From: Cyanobium sp. Cruz-8D1
GTDB lineage: Bacteria; Cyanobacteriota; Cyanobacteriia; PCC-6307; Cyanobiaceae
Assembly (NCBI RefSeq): GCF_024345975.1
Contig: NZ_JAGQCD010000002.1
Location: forward strand, 124,001 to 188,000
Reading direction: 5' to 3'
Length of the DNA: 64,000 nt
Part shown: positions 6,267 to 64,000 of the stretch, piece by piece
Layout of the letters: each line of letters begins with the position of its first letter
Numbering within the stretch: the first letter of the stretch is position 1
Position numbers and translations under genes: made by a program
The notes under the pieces: generated by a model
The model's input: only the letters and a program-made list of their open reading frames with translations
Databases searched by the model: none
What the model was told of the DNA's origin: nothing

Positions 6267-8888
6267 TCAGACCTCCGCCAGCACCTTCGCCTCCTCCTCC
6301 ACGCTCACCACCCTCCCGGCATCCTCGAAGCCGTCGATCTGGTCGAAGTTGAGGTAGCGGTAGAGCTGGTCCGAGAGGGGATCGATCCTGGCCGCCGCGA
6401 TCTCCAGATACTCGGCCGGGGTGGGGATGCGGCCCAGCAGGGCGCACACCGCCGCCAGTTCGGCGCTGCCCAGGTACACCTGGGCGCCGTTGCCGAGGCG
6501 GTTGTTGAAGTTGCGGGTGCTGGTGGAGAACACGGTGGTGTTGTCCTCGACCCGGGCCTGGTTGCCCATGCACAGGGAGCAGCCGGGCAGCTCCATGCGG
6601 GCGCCGGCGGTCTCGAACTTGGCGGTGTAGCCCTCGGCGCGCAGCACCTCGTCGTCCATGCGGGTGGGTGGGCAGACCCATAGCCGGGCGGCGCTGGTGC
6701 CGGCCCCATCCAGCACCGTGGCGGCGGCGCGGTAGTGGCCGATGTTGGTCATGCAGGAGCCGATGAACACCTCATCGATCCGGTCGCCCGCCACCTCGCT
6801 CAGCACCTTGACGTTGTCGGGGTCGTTGGGGCAGGCCAGGATCGGTTCGCTCAGGCTGTCCAGGTTGATGTCGATCACGGCGGCGTACTCGGCGTCGGCA
6901 TCGGCCTCCATCAGCACCGGATCGGCCAGCCAGGCCTCCATCGCCTTGATCCGCCGCGCCATGGTGCGGGCATCGCTGTAACCCCGCGCGATCATGTTCT
7001 TGAGCAGCGCCACATTGCTGCGCAGGTATTCGCTCACCGTCTCGACGCTCAGCTTGATCGTGCTGCCGGCGCAGGAGCGTTCGGCGGTCGCATCCGTCAA
7101 CTCAAACGCCTGCTCCAGCTTCAGATCGGGGAGTCCTTCGATCTCCATGATGCGGCCGCTGAAGATGTTCTTCTTGCCGGCCTTCTCCACCGTCAGCAGG
7201 CCCTGCTGGATGGCCACGTAGGGAATGGCGTTGACCACGTCCCGCAGGGTGACGCCGGGTTGCAGGGAGCCGGAGAAGCGCACCAGCACCGATTCGGGCA
7301 TGTCGAGGGGCATGGCGCCGATGGCGGCGGCGAAGGCCACCAGGCCGGAGCCGGCCGGGAAAGAGATACCGAGGGGGAAGCGGGTGTGGCTGTCACCGCC
7401 GGTGCCCACGGTGTCCGGCAGGAGCATGCGGTTGAGCCAGCTGTGGATGATGCCGTCGCCGGGGCGCAGGGCGACGCCACCGCGGGAGCTGATGAAGTCG
7501 GGCAGCTCGGCGTGGGTCTTGAGGTCGACAGGTTTGGGGTAGGCGGCGGTGTGGCAGAAGCTCTGCATCACCAGATCGGCGGAGAAGCCCAGGCAGGCCA
7601 GCTCCTTCATCTCGTCGCGGGTCATCGGCCCGGTGGTGTCCTGGCTGCCGACGCTGGTCATCAGCGGTTCGCAGCTCGTGCCGGGGCGCACGCCCGCCAG
7701 GCCGCAGGCCTTGCCCACCATCTTCTGGGCCAGGGTGAAGCCCTTGCCGGTGTCGCTGGGGGCCACCGGCCGGATGAAGGCCTCCGAGGCGGGAAGGCCC
7801 AGTTGCAGCCGCACCTTGTCGGTGAGCGAGCGGCCGATCAGCAGGGGGATGCGGCCGCCGGCCCGCACTTCGTCGGCGATGGTGCTGGGCTTGAGCTCGA
7901 AGCGGGCGACCACCTCCCCGGCACCTGGCTCGCCGGCGGCCCGCTCGATCGTGCCGGCGTGGGGCCGGATCGTGATCACGTCGCCGCTGTTCAGTGCGCT
8001 CACGTCGCACTCGATCGGCAGGGCGCCGGAATCCTCAGCGGTGTTGAAGAAGATCGGCGCGATCTTGCTGCCCAGCACCACCCCGCCGCTGCGCTTGTTG
8101 GGCACGTGGGGGATGTCGGTGCCGATGTGCCACAGCACCGAATTGATGGCGGATTTGCGGGAGCTGCCCGTTCCCACCACATCGCCCACGTAGGCGAGCG
8201 GATGGCCCTTGGCCTTCAGCTCAGCGATCAGGGCCAGCCCTTCGGGCATCCGCGTCTCCAGCATCGCCAGGGCGTGCAGGGGGATATCGGGACGGGTGGT
8301 GGCGTGGGTGGCCGGGGAGAGGTCGTCGGTGTTGGTCTCCCCCGTCACCTTGAACACCGTGACGGTGATAGCCTCCGGCAGGGGGGCACGGGCGTGGAAC
8401 CATTCGGCCGCCGCCCAGCTGTCCACCACCTGGCGGGCCAGGGGGTTGGTTTCGGCCAGCTCCAGAACATCGTGGAAGGCGTCGTAGACGAGAAGCGTGC
8501 GGCTCAGTCCCCGGGCGGCTTCGGCAGCGATGGCGGCCTCCGGGCAAGAGAGCAGGGCGATCAGGGCGCCGACGTTGTAGCCGCCGATCATGGTGGCCAG
8601 GAGTCCGGTGGCCTCCAGGGCGCTCACCAGGGGGCTCGCTGCGCTGCCCTGGGCCACGGCGCTGAGCCAGCCGGCCTTCACGTAGGCGGCCTCATCCACC
8701 CCCGGCGGGATGCGTTCGCCCAGCAGGTGCAGCAGAAACGCTTCCTCCCCGGCGGGTGGGTGCTCCAGCAGCTGGGTGAGGGCCTGGGCCTCGGGTGCCG
8801 TGAGCGGCAGGGGCGGCACGCCGAGGGCTTCACGGGCGGCGGCGGCCTCGCGGTAGCTGGGGAGCAGGTCGGCGGGCGAGAGGGACAT
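6267..8888 (-). CDS. acnB: Aconitate hydratase B / 2-methylisocitrate dehydratase
   Basis: This 873-residue protein, close to the E. coli AcnB length, has the AcnB order of domains: an N-terminal HEAT-like domain, a swivel domain with [12 protein letters not shown] and [13 protein letters not shown], then the catalytic domains with [13 protein letters not shown]. The three [4Fe-4S] cysteines are visible in [13 protein letters not shown] (about 715-720) and GCSLCMGNQ (about 775-785). It isomerises citrate to isocitrate in the cytosol. The ATG at 8888 ([13 protein letters not shown]) was chosen because the longer open frame upstream has no homology and overlaps the divergent DAHP synthase. It is divergently transcribed from that gene. 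Confidence 0.96.
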
Positions 8889-9054: not shown

Positions 9055-10128
9055 ATGATCCCCACCTCCGATCTCCACGTGGTGGAAACCCGGCCGCTGG
9101 TGCCGCCGGCGCTTCTGCATGCGGAGTTGCCCCTGTCCGAGCAGGCCGCCCGCACGGTGCAGCAGGCGCGCGAACGGATCAAGGCCATCCTGCACGCCGG
9201 TGACCAGCGGGTGCTGGTGATCGTCGGCCCCTGTTCGGTCCACGACGTGGCCGCCGCCCGCGAGTACGCCGGCGCCATCGCCCAGGCCCAGCGCCGCCAC
9301 CGGGGCGAGCTGGAGATCGTGATGCGGGTCTACTTCGAGAAGCCCCGCACCACCGTGGGCTGGAAGGGAATGATCAACGACCCCCACCTCGACGGCAGCT
9401 ACGACATCAACACCGGCCTGCGCCGCGCCCGTTCCCTGTTGCTGCACCTGGCGGAGCTGGGCCTGCCGGCGGCCACCGAGGTGCTCGATCCGGTGGTGCC
9501 CCAGTACCTCGCCGATCTGATCAGCTGGACCGCCATCGGCGCCCGCACCACCGAAAGCCAGACCCACCGCGAGATGGCCTCGGGCCTGTCGATGCCGATC
9601 GGCTTCAAGAACGGCACCGACGGCAGCGCCGCCACCGCCATCAATGCCATGGAGGCGGCCGCGAGGCCGCACCATTTCCTGGGCATCAACAAGGAAGGCC
9701 AGGCCGCGATCGTCTCCACCACCGGCAACCCGGATGGCCACCTGGTGCTGCGGGGGGGCAAGAGCGGCACGAACTACCACCCAGAGGCCGTCGAGGCCGC
9801 GGCGGCCCTGCTGGCCCGCGACGGCCTGCCGGCCCGGCTGATGGTGGATTGCAGCCACGGCAACTCCAACAAGGACTACCGCCGCCAGGGCGAGGTGCTG
9901 CGCCAGGTCGCCGACCAGGTGCGCCAGGGTTCTGTCCATGTGATGGGGGTGATGCTGGAGAGCCATCTGGTGGAAGGAAACCAGAAGATCTCCGCCGATC
10001 TTGCCTCCCTCACCTACGGCCAGAGCATCACCGATGCCTGCATCGATCTGGACACCACCCTGGATCTGCTGGTCGAACTCGCCGAGGCCGTCCAACAGGC
10101 CCAGGCCCGCAGTCTGGCCCTGGCCTGA
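9055..10128 (+). CDS. 3-deoxy-7-phosphoheptulonate (DAHP) synthase, type I
   Basis: This 357-residue enzyme of the AroF/G/H class condenses phosphoenolpyruvate with erythrose-4-phosphate, the first step to aromatic amino acids. Visible motifs are [45 protein letters not shown] and [10 protein letters not shown], which together supply the PEP, E4P and metal ligands. The ATG at 9055 is preferred to the upstream in-frame GTG at 9001 because the family starts near IPTSDLHV. The gene stands alone, divergent from acnB, and is followed by a cluster of hairpins. Feedback specificity (Phe, Tyr or Trp) cannot be assigned. Confidence 0.95.
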
Positions 10129-61270: not shown

Positions 61271-61858
61271 GTGCCCCCCAGCGAACCCCAGCCCCTGCTG
61301 GTCGACACCCAGCTGCTGCTCCGGTGGGCGATCGAACCAAGCCGGCTGCCGGCCGGGACGGCGAGCCTGCTGGCGGATCCGGCCCAGCCTTTGGTGCTCA
61401 GCGTCATGAGCCTGTGGGAGGTGGCGATCAAATCGTCCCTGGGCCGGGCCGACTTCCAGGTGGAGGCCGCCGCCCTGCGCCTGGGCCTGCTGGGGCAGGG
61501 ATTCCGCGAACTCCCTGTCCGCGCCGAGCACGCGCTGGCGGTGCAGCACCTGCCCTGGATCCACCGCGACCCCCACCGCTGCGCGGAAGACTTCGTCTTC
61601 GATCGTCTGCTGGTGGTGCAGGCCCAGCTGGAGGGCCTGCGGCTGCTCAGCGCGCCACCGCGCTCCTGGCGCCATGGCTTGAATAAGGCAACGGCGGATT
61701 CAAGGGAACCGGCACTTCCTTTAACAAGCCTGCCGATAGACGGCCTGGCGGTCCCGTTTGCCGATCGCAATCACCAGCACGAGCAACTGCTGGTCCCGCA
61801 CCTCATAGACCAGGCGGAATCCAGCGGCGCGGAGCTTGATCTTGTAGCGATCGCTTGA
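61271..61858 (+). pseudogene. PIN-domain protein with altered, overlapping 3' end
   Basis: The first about 130 residues form a PIN nuclease of the type II toxin class: LLVDTQLLL (D12), SVMSLWEVAIKSSLGR (E50), HRDP and FDRLLVVQAQLEGLRLLS. Between HRDP and FDR there is an eight-residue insert (HRCAEDFV), where other family members have them adjacent. After LLS the frame runs on for about 65 residues that lie antisense to the RelE gene and have no PIN character, and the last conserved Asp segment is missing. No antitoxin gene is adjacent. It is probably an inactive remnant. The start is GTG 61271. Confidence 0.6.
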
Positions 61859-61996
61859 GCCCCGCAGCTTGCTGGCGGGGATGCGGGGCTGGATCAGCCG
61901 TTCAGCCAGCTTCTTCTTGAACGTCTCCCGGATCTCTGCAGCCAGCTTGTGCCACTCGCGAAGGGCCTCGGGGTGGAAGGCCAGCTCATAGCCCAT
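61721..61996 (-). CDS. RelE/ParE-superfamily toxin
   Basis: This 91-residue protein has the RelE-like fold: FHPEALREWHKLAAEIRETF, KLRGSSDRYKIKLRAAGFRLVYEV and LVLVIAIGKRDRQAVY. Basic residues R and K in the central strands and the C-terminal Arg/Tyr correspond to those used for ribosome-dependent mRNA cleavage in RelE. It overlaps the upstream antitoxin gene by 11 bases. Confidence 0.88.
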   Translation of the reverse strand: MGYELAFHPEALREWHKLAAEIRETFKKKLAERLIQPRIPASKLRGSSDRYKIKLRAAGFRLVYEVRDQQLLVLVIAIGKRDRQAVYRQAC

Positions 61997-62243
61997 CCAT
62001 GGTCACGCGCACCGGTTCCTGCCCATCCGCCAGTCGCGTGTCGGCGATGCGGTTGAGCCCCAGGTCTTCGACCAGGTCCATCAGATCCTCATAGGCCTTG
62101 GCGGGCACGCAGTAGAACGCCGGTTCGTTGCGGTTCAGAACGGCCACCGGCAGCCCCTCGCCAGCCGCCACCGTGGCCATCGGATTTTTCTTGAGTTCCG
62201 AGATGCTCACAGCGATCTCGGCCAGCATGCGATGGGCCATCAA
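61986..62243 (-). CDS. Phd/YefM/StbD-type antitoxin
   Basis: This 85-residue protein starts MMAHRMLAEIAVSISELKKNP and continues LPVAVLNRNEPAFYCVPAKAYEDLMDLVEDL. This is the Phd/YefM antitoxin pattern: an N-terminal DNA-binding strand-helix and a flexible acidic tail that occupies the toxin groove. ATG 62243 or 62240 may be used. Together with the RelE-type gene it makes an intact toxin-antitoxin unit next to the tRNA remnant. Confidence 0.85.
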   Translation of the reverse strand: MMAHRMLAEIAVSISELKKNPMATVAAGEGLPVAVLNRNEPAFYCVPAKAYEDLMDLVEDLGLNRIADTRLADGQEPVRVTMDGL

Positions 62244-62328
62244 CTCTTACGACCAGCTCGTGGACCCACTTTAGGTCCCGCAACAGGTCTCGGAGCAGGT
62301 CCCCGGATGTCTGACGCAGCCAGTGTGA

Positions 62329-62375
62329 TGCCCGATGCCGGTTTCGAACCAGCGACATCCTGCTTGTAAGGCAAG
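62329..62375 (-). pseudogene. 3' half of tRNA-Val(UAC); probable attachment-site scar
   Basis: Read on the minus strand, the segment gives tRNA positions 27 to 73. There is an anticodon stem CTTGC/GCAGG around the loop CTTACAA (anticodon TAC, valine), a five-base variable region ATGTC, and a T-arm GCTGG-TTCGAAA-CCGGC. Then come the 3' acceptor strand ATCGGGC and the discriminator A. The 5' acceptor and D-arm, expected at 62376 and above, are missing: the sequence there shows only a chance TGCCC and no D-arm. Such a 3'-half fragment is typical of tRNA-integrating islands, where the displaced 3' end marks the far end of the element. With this orientation the element lies at higher coordinates. 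Confidence 0.85.
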
Positions 62376-62457: not shown

Positions 62458-62840
62458 TCGCCATTTTTGCCCCTTTGCTTGCGAAGCCGCAGCCTTCTTG
62501 AGGGTCGCCTTCAAACAGCCGCCAAGACGGGATTGAGACGCCAGAGACGTGTGGCCGCAGATTTTGCCCCTGCTCCGCAGCGGGGCCAATAGAGGGCTTT
62601 CTTACTGCGCAACGAGCTCGATGACAGGCCACTAGCGGATGTGGTGACTGAGCTGGGTGGGTAGTTGCTGCTGGTGTCGCCCCGTCTAGGCAGCCATCTC
62701 TCGGACCAGCTGCCTGCTGTTCAGCCGGCGCGCGTGACCGCTATGGCATCGCGGCCTGGCTGCGCTGGCAAGACGCTTCGGTCAGCGGCGGCCGTCCTGA
62801 ACTTGCCACGGCGGTGCCGTGGCTGACGTCAGACAGCCGC

Positions 62841-62870
62841 CGCCGCCCTCCGCCGCCCTCCGCTGCCCTC
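62841..62870. repeat. Three tandem 10-bp units
   Basis: CGCCGCCCTC is repeated as two exact copies and one with a single change (CGCTGCCCTC). The region is strongly pyrimidine-rich on this strand. The function is unknown. Confidence 0.85.
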
Positions 62871-63056: not shown

Positions 63057-63083
63057 TTGATAGTGCAAGTGTTCTGGTAGGAT
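63057..63083 (+). promoter_or_regulatory. Candidate promoter before the SLOG gene
   Basis: TTGATA (63057-63062) and TAGGAT (63078-63083) are separated by 15 bases, slightly short of optimal, in an AT-richer patch 129 bases upstream of the SLOG-family ATG. The call is weak. Confidence 0.25.
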
Positions 63084-63211
63084 AGAGTCTGCGCCAAAGG
63101 CCCTAAGCCCATCGCCGGCGGCAACCTCATCCCCTGATCTCGCCATCACCGCCGCATAAGTCTGAGCGGCCGTGATGCCCCGATCAGTTGTCACCCACGG
63201 CAACTGATTCC

Positions 63212-63709
63212 ATGGCTTTCTGTACTTCATCCAGGTCCGTCATCGCTGCCGGTCGCTCCCTTGTGATCGCGGCCGGCGGCGGCCGTGATCTGGCCTGGTC
63301 CCATCAGCGCATTGCCGCTGAGCTGCTGGCCCGCAGCGGTGGCCGGCTGGTCCATCTGCTGCTCCACGGCGGGGCCCGCGGTGCCGATGCCGCCATCGCC
63401 CGCGCGGCCCATCAGCTGGGCTGGTCGGCGCTGGTCCTGCCTGCCGAGTGGCGGCGCCATGGCCGGGCCGCCGGGCCGATCCGCAACCGGGAGCTGCTTG
63501 AGCTGGCTGTGGCCAGGGCCGAGGCCCACACCTCCCCTGGGGTCTCCACCTCCGTGCTGGTGGTGGCTTTCCCCGGCGGACCTGGCACGGCCTCGTTGGT
63601 GAGCGAAGCCCGCCGCATGGTTTCCCGTGCGCCGGTGCCGATCGCCGTGGTGGAAGTCAGCCCATCAGCGGGCCGTTGGGCCAAGCCCACTGCTGTCTCT
63701 TGCCCCTGA
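63212..63709 (+). CDS. SLOG/DUF2493-like Rossmann-fold nucleotide-binding protein
   Basis: This 165-residue protein has SLVIAAGGGRDL near the start, LLHGGARGADAAIARAA in the middle (the nucleotide-binding loop of the YspA/DUF2493 branch of the SLOG superfamily), PAEWRRHGRAAGPIRNRELL and VLVVAFPGGPGTASLVSEARR. Such proteins are frequent in phages and islands and bind nucleotide-derived ligands, some in defence or conflict systems. ATG 63212 was chosen by family N-terminus. It is followed 49 bases later by the Gp157-like gene on the same strand. Confidence 0.85.
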   Translation: MAFCTSSRSVIAAGRSLVIAAGGGRDLAWSHQRIAAELLARSGGRLVHLLLHGGARGADAAIARAAHQLGWSALVLPAEWRRHGRAAGPIRNRELLELAVARAEAHTSPGVSTSVLVVAFPGGPGTASLVSEARRMVSRAPVPIAVVEVSPSAGRWAKPTAVSCP

Positions 63710-63758
63710 AGCCTTCCGCGCCATTAGGCGCCTCCGTTCCCATTCCCATTTCACCGTC

Positions 63759-64000
63759 ATGCCCGTTCTTACCCCCACCCCCACCGCTGCTGCCACGGCG
63801 CCCGTTCACGTTGCTGCGGATGCAGCTGGCCCCGCCTGTTCCTTGCAGCGCTCAAGCTCCCTTTGGCAGCTGGGCATCGAGGCCCAGGAGCTCACCACGG
63901 CCATCGGCCAGCTGGCCCAGCAGCTGGAAGCCGACGACGACACCCGCGCCCAGGCCCTCGCCGAGCTGGAGGCCGCCCTCCTTGCGGAAGAAGGCAACAA
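63759..64000 (+). CDS. Phage Gp157-like protein (partial, runs off right edge)
   Basis: The visible 80 residues start MPVLTPTPTAAATAPVHVAA, a low-complexity lead-in, followed by SLWQLGIEAQELTTAIGQLA and LEADDDTRAQALAELEAALL. The LWxL-x-EAQEL start and the D-x-D-rich helix spacing fit the N-terminal part of siphovirus Gp157 family proteins, which in streptococcal phages are linked to superinfection resistance. The coiled-coil pattern is clear; the family call is likely but rests on a partial sequence. Confidence 0.6.
   Translation, partial: MPVLTPTPTAAATAPVHVAADAAGPACSLQRSSSLWQLGIEAQELTTAIGQLAQQLEADDDTRAQALAELEAALLAEEGN

Follow-up and report, generated by a model that had tools for sequence, protein, structure and literature searches.

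The locus and its genes

The window, the whole stretch of DNA that was analysed, is 64,000 nucleotides long (G000:C21:124001-188000) and comes from the 3.97 Mb, 108-contig genome of a freshwater picocyanobacterium. Its right end holds a gene for a SLOG protein and the beginning of a gene for a Gp157 protein (Table 1). An earlier note, made from the sequence of the window, gave the two genes these family names, both of which are borne out by Pfam, and a spacing of 49 bp, which is exact with the Gp157 start codon (ATG) at 63759. When read past the window edge, the complete Gp157 protein has 209 amino acids (L009 7759-8388). The note had also proposed looking rightward for recombination or single-strand-binding genes. 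A Rad52 gene begins 83 bp after Gp157, and a Gp2.5-like SSB gene is present in the other half of the prophage described below.

Table 1. Features at the attachment end, in window positions unless a locus is named
Feature	Position	Strand	Remarks
attR core, 3′ end of tRNA-Val(TAC); host DNA to the left, prophage to the right	62324..62373	-	98% to C40
Conserved noncoding block upstream of SLOG (about -451 to -358)	62760..62853	+	blastn among own-genome copies
Conserved noncoding block upstream of SLOG (about -150 to -86)	63061..63126	+	alignment of 12 own-genome copies
SLOG protein, YAcAr/YspA family, 165 aa	63212..63709	+	PF10686; ATG to TGA
Gp157 protein, first 80 codons in window	63759..64000	+	PF05565, phrog_253; continues to G000:C21:188388 (L009 8388)
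Rad52 SSAP, third gene, outside window	L009 8472-9488		338 aa, Rad52_Rad22 family

The genome holds further copies of this cassette, which are referred to by letter. The more distant of the two noncoding blocks upstream of SLOG is 88% identical over 94 bp to that of copy f (blastn). The nearer block contains a TAGgAT/TAGAAT hexamer and is a possible candidate for a promoter or operator; a sigma-70 scan upstream of SLOG did not find a promoter. In some cassettes, a 70-amino acid ORF (L010 9657-9866) lies between Gp157 and Rad52, while elsewhere Rad52 has a longer N-terminus instead. This ORF has no family match.

Protein families and folds

The SLOG protein scores 31.5 bits against a cut-off of 28.2 for PF10686 (YAcAr), which places it in the YAcAr/YspA family. 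Its structural model has a mean pLDDT of 87.4, and the best solved neighbour is YpsA (Z 12.1, rmsd 2.6 over 127 residues), followed by ShosA (Z 10.8), DprA of S. pneumoniae (Z 10.1, rmsd 3.4 over 117 residues, on a par with LOG and others), the LOGs (about 10) and the Thoeris protein ThsA (8.9). Because YpsA, ShosA, LOG and DprA are near ties (Z 10-12), the function of the protein is not told by its fold. A Foldseek search against viral models returned 48 matches at E ≤ 0.001, several of them named YspA or DUF2493. There was nothing at E ≤ 0.001 in a Foldseek search of the PDB, no match of the SLOG profile to PDB sequences, and no relative at E ≤ 0.001 by tblastn among 50,697 phage records.

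The motif of LOG phosphoribohydrolases is PGGxGTxxE, with a glutamate. The SLOG protein has PGGPGTASL, and leucine 129 is nearly invariant at the glutamate position among 33 sequences (alignment A3). As the glutamate is lacking, the identification as a LOG enzyme was rejected. Jumbo phages have been described by Iyer et al. as having DprA-type and YAcAr SLOG proteins, for which ssDNA-binding and NAD+-linked roles were suggested (PMC7824862).

An HMM search with the complete downstream protein, as the note had advised, gave 87.4 bits for PF05565 (Sipho_Gp157) against a cut-off of 28.6, and the protein belongs to that family. The model consists of long helices and a beta-rich C-terminus (pTM 0.51). 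It had no Foldseek match in the PDB at E ≤ 0.001, and the profile gave weak, unrelated PDB matches alone. The likeness to the Mu Gam end-protection protein is a PHROG label only (phrog_253).

The third protein is a member of the Rad52_Rad22 family (PF04098; 139.2 bits against 20.3), and its best matches to RAD52 chains in the PDB have E-values of 3.5e-12 (8g3g) and 3.3e-9 (8ril). It falls below the TIGR00607 cut-off (63.9 against 224.8). None of the three proteins has a further domain above the Pfam cut-off. Approximately 70 residues of the Rad52 C-terminus (L009 9258-9461) recur, about 35-51% identical, at the C-terminus of a different, 256-amino acid protein (L015 11818-12585) that is encoded in the early operon of the same prophages. 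At E ≤ 0.1 Pfam gave nothing for the shared segment, whose sole PHROG match has an E-value of 0.096; it could possibly be a docking domain, e.g., for SSB. The early-operon protein (Cterm256) was also considered as a homologue of the RecT of phage S-LBS1, and no homology was found.

Attachment site and prophage

The gene pair had been placed in the note next to an integration scar at the edge of an island. The scar is real and is an attR that duplicates the 3′ end of tRNA-Val(TAC). The edge stands as the attR boundary, while the island itself is a prophage. The core matches G000:C40:18649-18698 over 50 bp with one mismatch and consists of the last 45 bases of the tRNA gene, called on contig C40 by ARAGORN, together with 5 further bases. 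On C40, the intact tRNA-Val is followed by an integrase (phrog_1), a KilA-N protein, a Gp2.5-like SSB, a VRR-NUC-like endonuclease and the contig end. On C21, a head scaffold (phrog_206), portal (phrog_145, DUF4055), terminase large subunit (phrog_38) and primase lie to the right of the cassette, again up to the contig end. The two ends of the prophage probably sit on separate contigs, C21 with attR and C40 with the tRNA-Val and integrase.

A prophage in genome G102 has the same gene order as C21 from 197.4k to its end together with the C40 early genes, at 77-96% nucleotide identity (matches over 250 bp); the integrases are 71% identical, and the cassette of that prophage lies on the other side of the integrase. 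The empty tRNA-Val site is found in G165 and G157, where the left flank of C40 adjoins the left flank of the window with a 50-bp overlap. The att sites, the empty site, the integrase and the structural genes show that a temperate phage has integrated in tRNA-Val(TAC), and they bear out the phage side of the note's proposal of a phage- or plasmid-derived cassette. The relatives of the portal suggest that the prophage is a siphovirus. A tycheposon was considered as well, and the element was not classed as one because structural genes are present. The SLOG gene is also carried on six IMG/VR contigs, four of which have an integrase match starting within 2.6 kb upstream; of the two without such a match, one has only 1 kb of upstream sequence.

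Just outside attR lies a gene pair (61721-62243) that resembles, by eye, a RelE-type toxin and antitoxin, and this pair also adjoins the empty site in G165 and G157. Four genomes (G155 C2, G161 C1, G153 C2 and G090 C1) have a second tRNA-Val core approximately 9.6-12 kb off, with no SLOG match, and it seems that the site is used by other elements too. To the right of the cassette are two long genes (L009 16662-18772) that resemble, by eye, genes near cassette b (L010 3086-4546). A tail-fibre label for them was dropped, since they have no PHROG match at E ≤ 0.001.

Position at attachment sites across loci

In 38 of 74 loci, a tRNA T-arm was found no more than 2 kb upstream of SLOG; the loci are not independent, as several come from a single genome. 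The search took in those of the 86 loci with at least 1.2 kb of upstream sequence, the others having no room. The association is not due to chance, as only one of 50 equally long downstream stretches and none of 74 mononucleotide shuffles gave a T-arm. No tRNA piece was detected in the remaining 36 loci, and a looser tRNA pattern found nothing upstream of copies c, e, g, j and k of this genome. The cassette sits beside the attachment core, opposite the integrase.

Several loci illustrate this arrangement. In G184, an element of about 7 kb that contains SLOG is delimited by a tRNA-Gly(TCC) and by a repeat of the 3′ end of this tRNA, beside glgX; the tRNA next to glgX is bare in the other nine of ten chosen glgX loci. 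The element in G062 is about 10 kb long and comprises a tRNA-Gly(TCC), an integrase whose match is split in two, a truncated Gp157, SLOG and a further core. From SLOG to the far core, the distance is about 0.8 kb in G062 and 1.9 kb in G184, and both cassettes are incomplete. No structural genes were recognised in these elements of about 7-10 kb with a tRNA-Gly, a second core and a partial cassette (L043 1328-11280 and L069 2443-9296), which may be decayed prophages or satellites. Among 28 cassettes whose surroundings were searched for direct repeats, L069 alone has a tRNA att repeat within 9 kb.

At the tRNA-Pro(TGG) loci, the core is reversed relative to the cassette, and in several an intact tRNA directly precedes it. 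A tRNA-Pro core lies between cassette and integrase in copies b, f and i of this genome, in G102 and in G124, and the simplest reading is a tandem-prophage junction or attP. Vulcanococcus sp. Clear-D1 has two cassettes 56,093 bp apart that are identical at 9263 of 9375 positions from locus position 7001. Leftward from SLOG, their exact match ends at position 7142, which is the end of the tRNA core.

Copy h of this genome (L014 8064-8129) has kept a tRNA-Gly core beside glgX, and its Rad52 end abuts an antiporter gene. The best match of this antiporter in G171 is on a different contig from glgX, and a rearrangement is possible. Between the att core and some cassettes there is an orphan protein of 128 amino acids (L015 6594-6977, L016 9260-9643 and L018 10487-10870) with no match in Pfam, PHROG, NCBIfam or PADLOC.

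Conservation and copy number

SLOG, Gp157 and Rad52 form a conserved operon. Gp157 follows SLOG in 60 of 65 loci, Rad52 is present in 54 and missing in 11, and all three genes occur in 54; these 65 of the 86 loci, again not independent, have at least 2.3 kb of downstream sequence each, for which the others have no room. The scan of genome contigs retained 80 of 95 rows before counting.

This genome contains 12 full-length SLOG matches and five partial ones, 11 full-length Gp157 genes and one broken, and Rad52 at 11 cassettes. There are six full-length portal genes without stops, which are 88-100% identical to one another, five partial or broken portals, six SSB genes, and 12 integrase matches, five of them full-length at ≥ 55% identity. 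Some of the cassettes appear to remain where the other parts of the prophage have been lost. Among 41 genomes of the genus, SLOG is matched in 26 and portal in 22, with SLOG alone in seven and portal alone in three; the two counts are correlated (Spearman 0.62, or 0.58 without this genome). In a sample of 151 genomes of the family, 39 have Rad52-profile matches, some covering the C-terminal part only, and 33 have SLOG.

Selection and recombination among copies

The median dN/dS among the copies of this genome is 0.29 for SLOG (12 copies), 0.26 for Gp157 (10 copies, not g or k) and 0.29 for Rad52 (10 copies, not f; k has none). The proteins are therefore kept by selection, perhaps mostly inside phages.

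The three genes of the cassette do not share one history. In tests on nine of the 12 copies (f, g and k left out), the AU test rejected the tree of each gene on the alignment of each other gene (six of six, p ≤ 0.00125); under the SH test, which is milder, two of these six results have borderline p-values (0.043 and 0.046). Alignment A1 holds eight of 11 Rad52 copies and A2 holds ten of 12 SLOG copies. From the conflicting trees, it follows that the cassettes recombine. Copies a and b, for example, are 93% identical in the SLOG protein, 81% in Gp157 and 58% in Rad52. The cassettes within this genome have roughly 70-93% nucleotide identity, and this range, together with the exchanged genes, indicates that the module region recombines with resident relatives. 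In E. coli phages, Rad52-like recombinases make mosaics with defective prophages, according to De Paepe et al. (PMC3945230).

Function of the operon

The locus is best explained as an operon at the attR end of a temperate phage that has integrated in tRNA-Val(TAC), with SLOG, Gp157 and Rad52 probably forming a homologous-recombination module of the phage. Rad52 would anneal single-stranded DNA, as its family and PDB relatives suggest. Gp157 may act as a DNA-end or ssDNA partner, a tentative role that draws on the PHROG label and the coiled-coil model. SLOG could be an accessory protein that binds nucleotides or ssDNA, possibly as a loader similar to DprA or as a regulator gated by a ligand. 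Once the phage genome is circular, attP would have the operon on one side and the integrase on the other, and the module region would exchange with resident relatives. No exonuclease gene was seen in the operon. The same prophages have their SSB and endonuclease genes in another operon, which lies towards the integrase, and the operon at the att end may therefore be a moron as opposed to the main recombination module.

It is conceivable, though improbable, that the operon is a repair cassette retained by the host, whereby solitary copies are kept after prophage loss and Rad52 annealing helps the cell to repair or take up DNA. The 12 full-length SLOG and 11 Rad52 genes outnumber the six full-length portals and six SSB genes, the reading frames are mostly open with the low dN/dS given above, and copies d, j and k have none of nine phage markers (hits over 60 aa) in a stretch of about 20 kb. 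However, the excess of 12 cassettes over six portals is not significant (simple binomial p 0.24), and the extra cassettes could belong to prophages whose portals are of other types. The dN/dS between copies may mostly reflect evolution inside phages, and 15 of the 41 genomes of the genus have no SLOG match at all.

The position of the cassette, at the prophage end opposite the integrase, resembles that of lysogenic-conversion genes, and the note had pointed to the occurrence of SLOG proteins in defence and conflict systems and to a link of Gp157 with phage superinfection resistance. SLOG and Gp157, expressed in the lysogen, would then block related phages, with SLOG making or sensing a nucleotide signal. 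SLOG domains do occur in Thoeris ThsA and ShosA, both of which are fold neighbours, and a host of several prophages could profit from exclusion. The defence role nonetheless found no support, as PADLOC (library of 2023) gave no match at E ≤ 0.01 for SLOG, Gp157, Rad52 and three more proteins, and the first three hold no additional domain. The Gp157 link fared no better; the resistance traces to phage Sfi21, where the protective element is described as a 302-bp noncoding replication origin (PMC6356513). Moreover, six closely related full-length portal genes coexist in one genome, which argues against strong exclusion. With the PADLOC result and the Gp157 literature, a defence cassette was rejected as the main reading and is regarded as unlikely.

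It is very improbable that the cassette is itself a mobile element or satellite inserting beside att sites; the att-bounded elements of G184 and G062, which have cassette parts and no recognised structural genes, would suit this, as would the homology block of many copies, which stops near the Rad52 stop codon, but a search of copies for direct repeats flanking just the cassette found none, and next to the cores that were found, the cassette is placed as expected of a phage end.

The recombination module of a temperate phage, the preferred reading, can be extended in a direction that is speculative and unlikely to hold in full. The cassette could be a portable recombination hub, left selectively at att sites as a landing strip for incoming phages and gated by SLOG. 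If so, it would sit at the attachment end throughout a lineage of temperate cyanophages, and homologous landing strips, each encoding an annealing protein that tolerates divergence, would fill the chromosome. Incoming phages would swap ends with residents, thereby switching att specificity (tRNA-Val, tRNA-Gly and tRNA-Pro), and the exchange of ends would build tandem prophage arrays. SLOG, as the sensor of a nucleotide signal given by infection or DNA damage, would gate the exchange.

Lysogeny is apparently rare among unicellular cyanobacteria, as stated in one study (PMC6157547). One genome here has six full-length, closely related portals of a single prophage lineage, and the mark of this lineage is an operon in which a SLOG protein and a Rad52 annealing protein are paired. 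This offers a tractable case for establishing the role of SLOG proteins in phages, and whether residents and invaders are recombined in nature by the annealing proteins of phages.

Relation to known phages and systems

The portal is 28-32% identical, over 86-87% of the protein, to those of the cyanosiphoviruses P-SS2, S-CBS2 and S-CRES. This group accounts for all eight portal matches at E ≤ 1e-5 among the 50,697 phage records, the nearest being 32% identical. The prophages thus appear, by portal, to form a temperate lineage distantly related to P-SS2 and S-CBS2, and the lineage has no isolate among the records searched. P-SS2 differs in having RecT beside int, and S-CRES3 in having SSAP_Sak. 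A relation to the LOG and SSAP_Sak genes of S-CRES3 found no support (hhalign probabilities of 7.6 and 1.2).

Cyanosiphovirus S-LBS1, a siphovirus of freshwater Synechococcus with an integrase, shares Gp157 (47% identical) and VRR-NUC (59%), whereas its SSAP is RecT-like. Queries with SLOG, Rad52, SSB, integrase and partial portal and terminase gave nothing at E ≤ 0.01 in S-LBS1. An S-LBS1-like phage was rejected, since of the queries Gp157 and VRR-NUC alone are common to both.

A RAD52 family gene at a tRNA-linked phage island, as here, has been reported for the islands of Synechococcus RS9917, where it was explained as repair under IS attack; the parts of that paper drawn on here do not describe the operon or its att position (PMC2784084). 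A published description of the SLOG-Gp157-Rad52 operon was not found in the open-licence literature.

Among the closest known arrangements are the SSAP modules (Rad52, Red-beta and Erf) of temperate phages, which likewise combine a Rad52-superfamily SSAP with a Gp157-like gene near int and att and undergo mosaic exchange. In contrast to these, the operon described here starts with SLOG, lies on the non-integrase side of att, and occurs in many copies per genome, some without other phage markers nearby. What is new is the presence of SLOG in this operon, its position at the att end and its many copies per genome.
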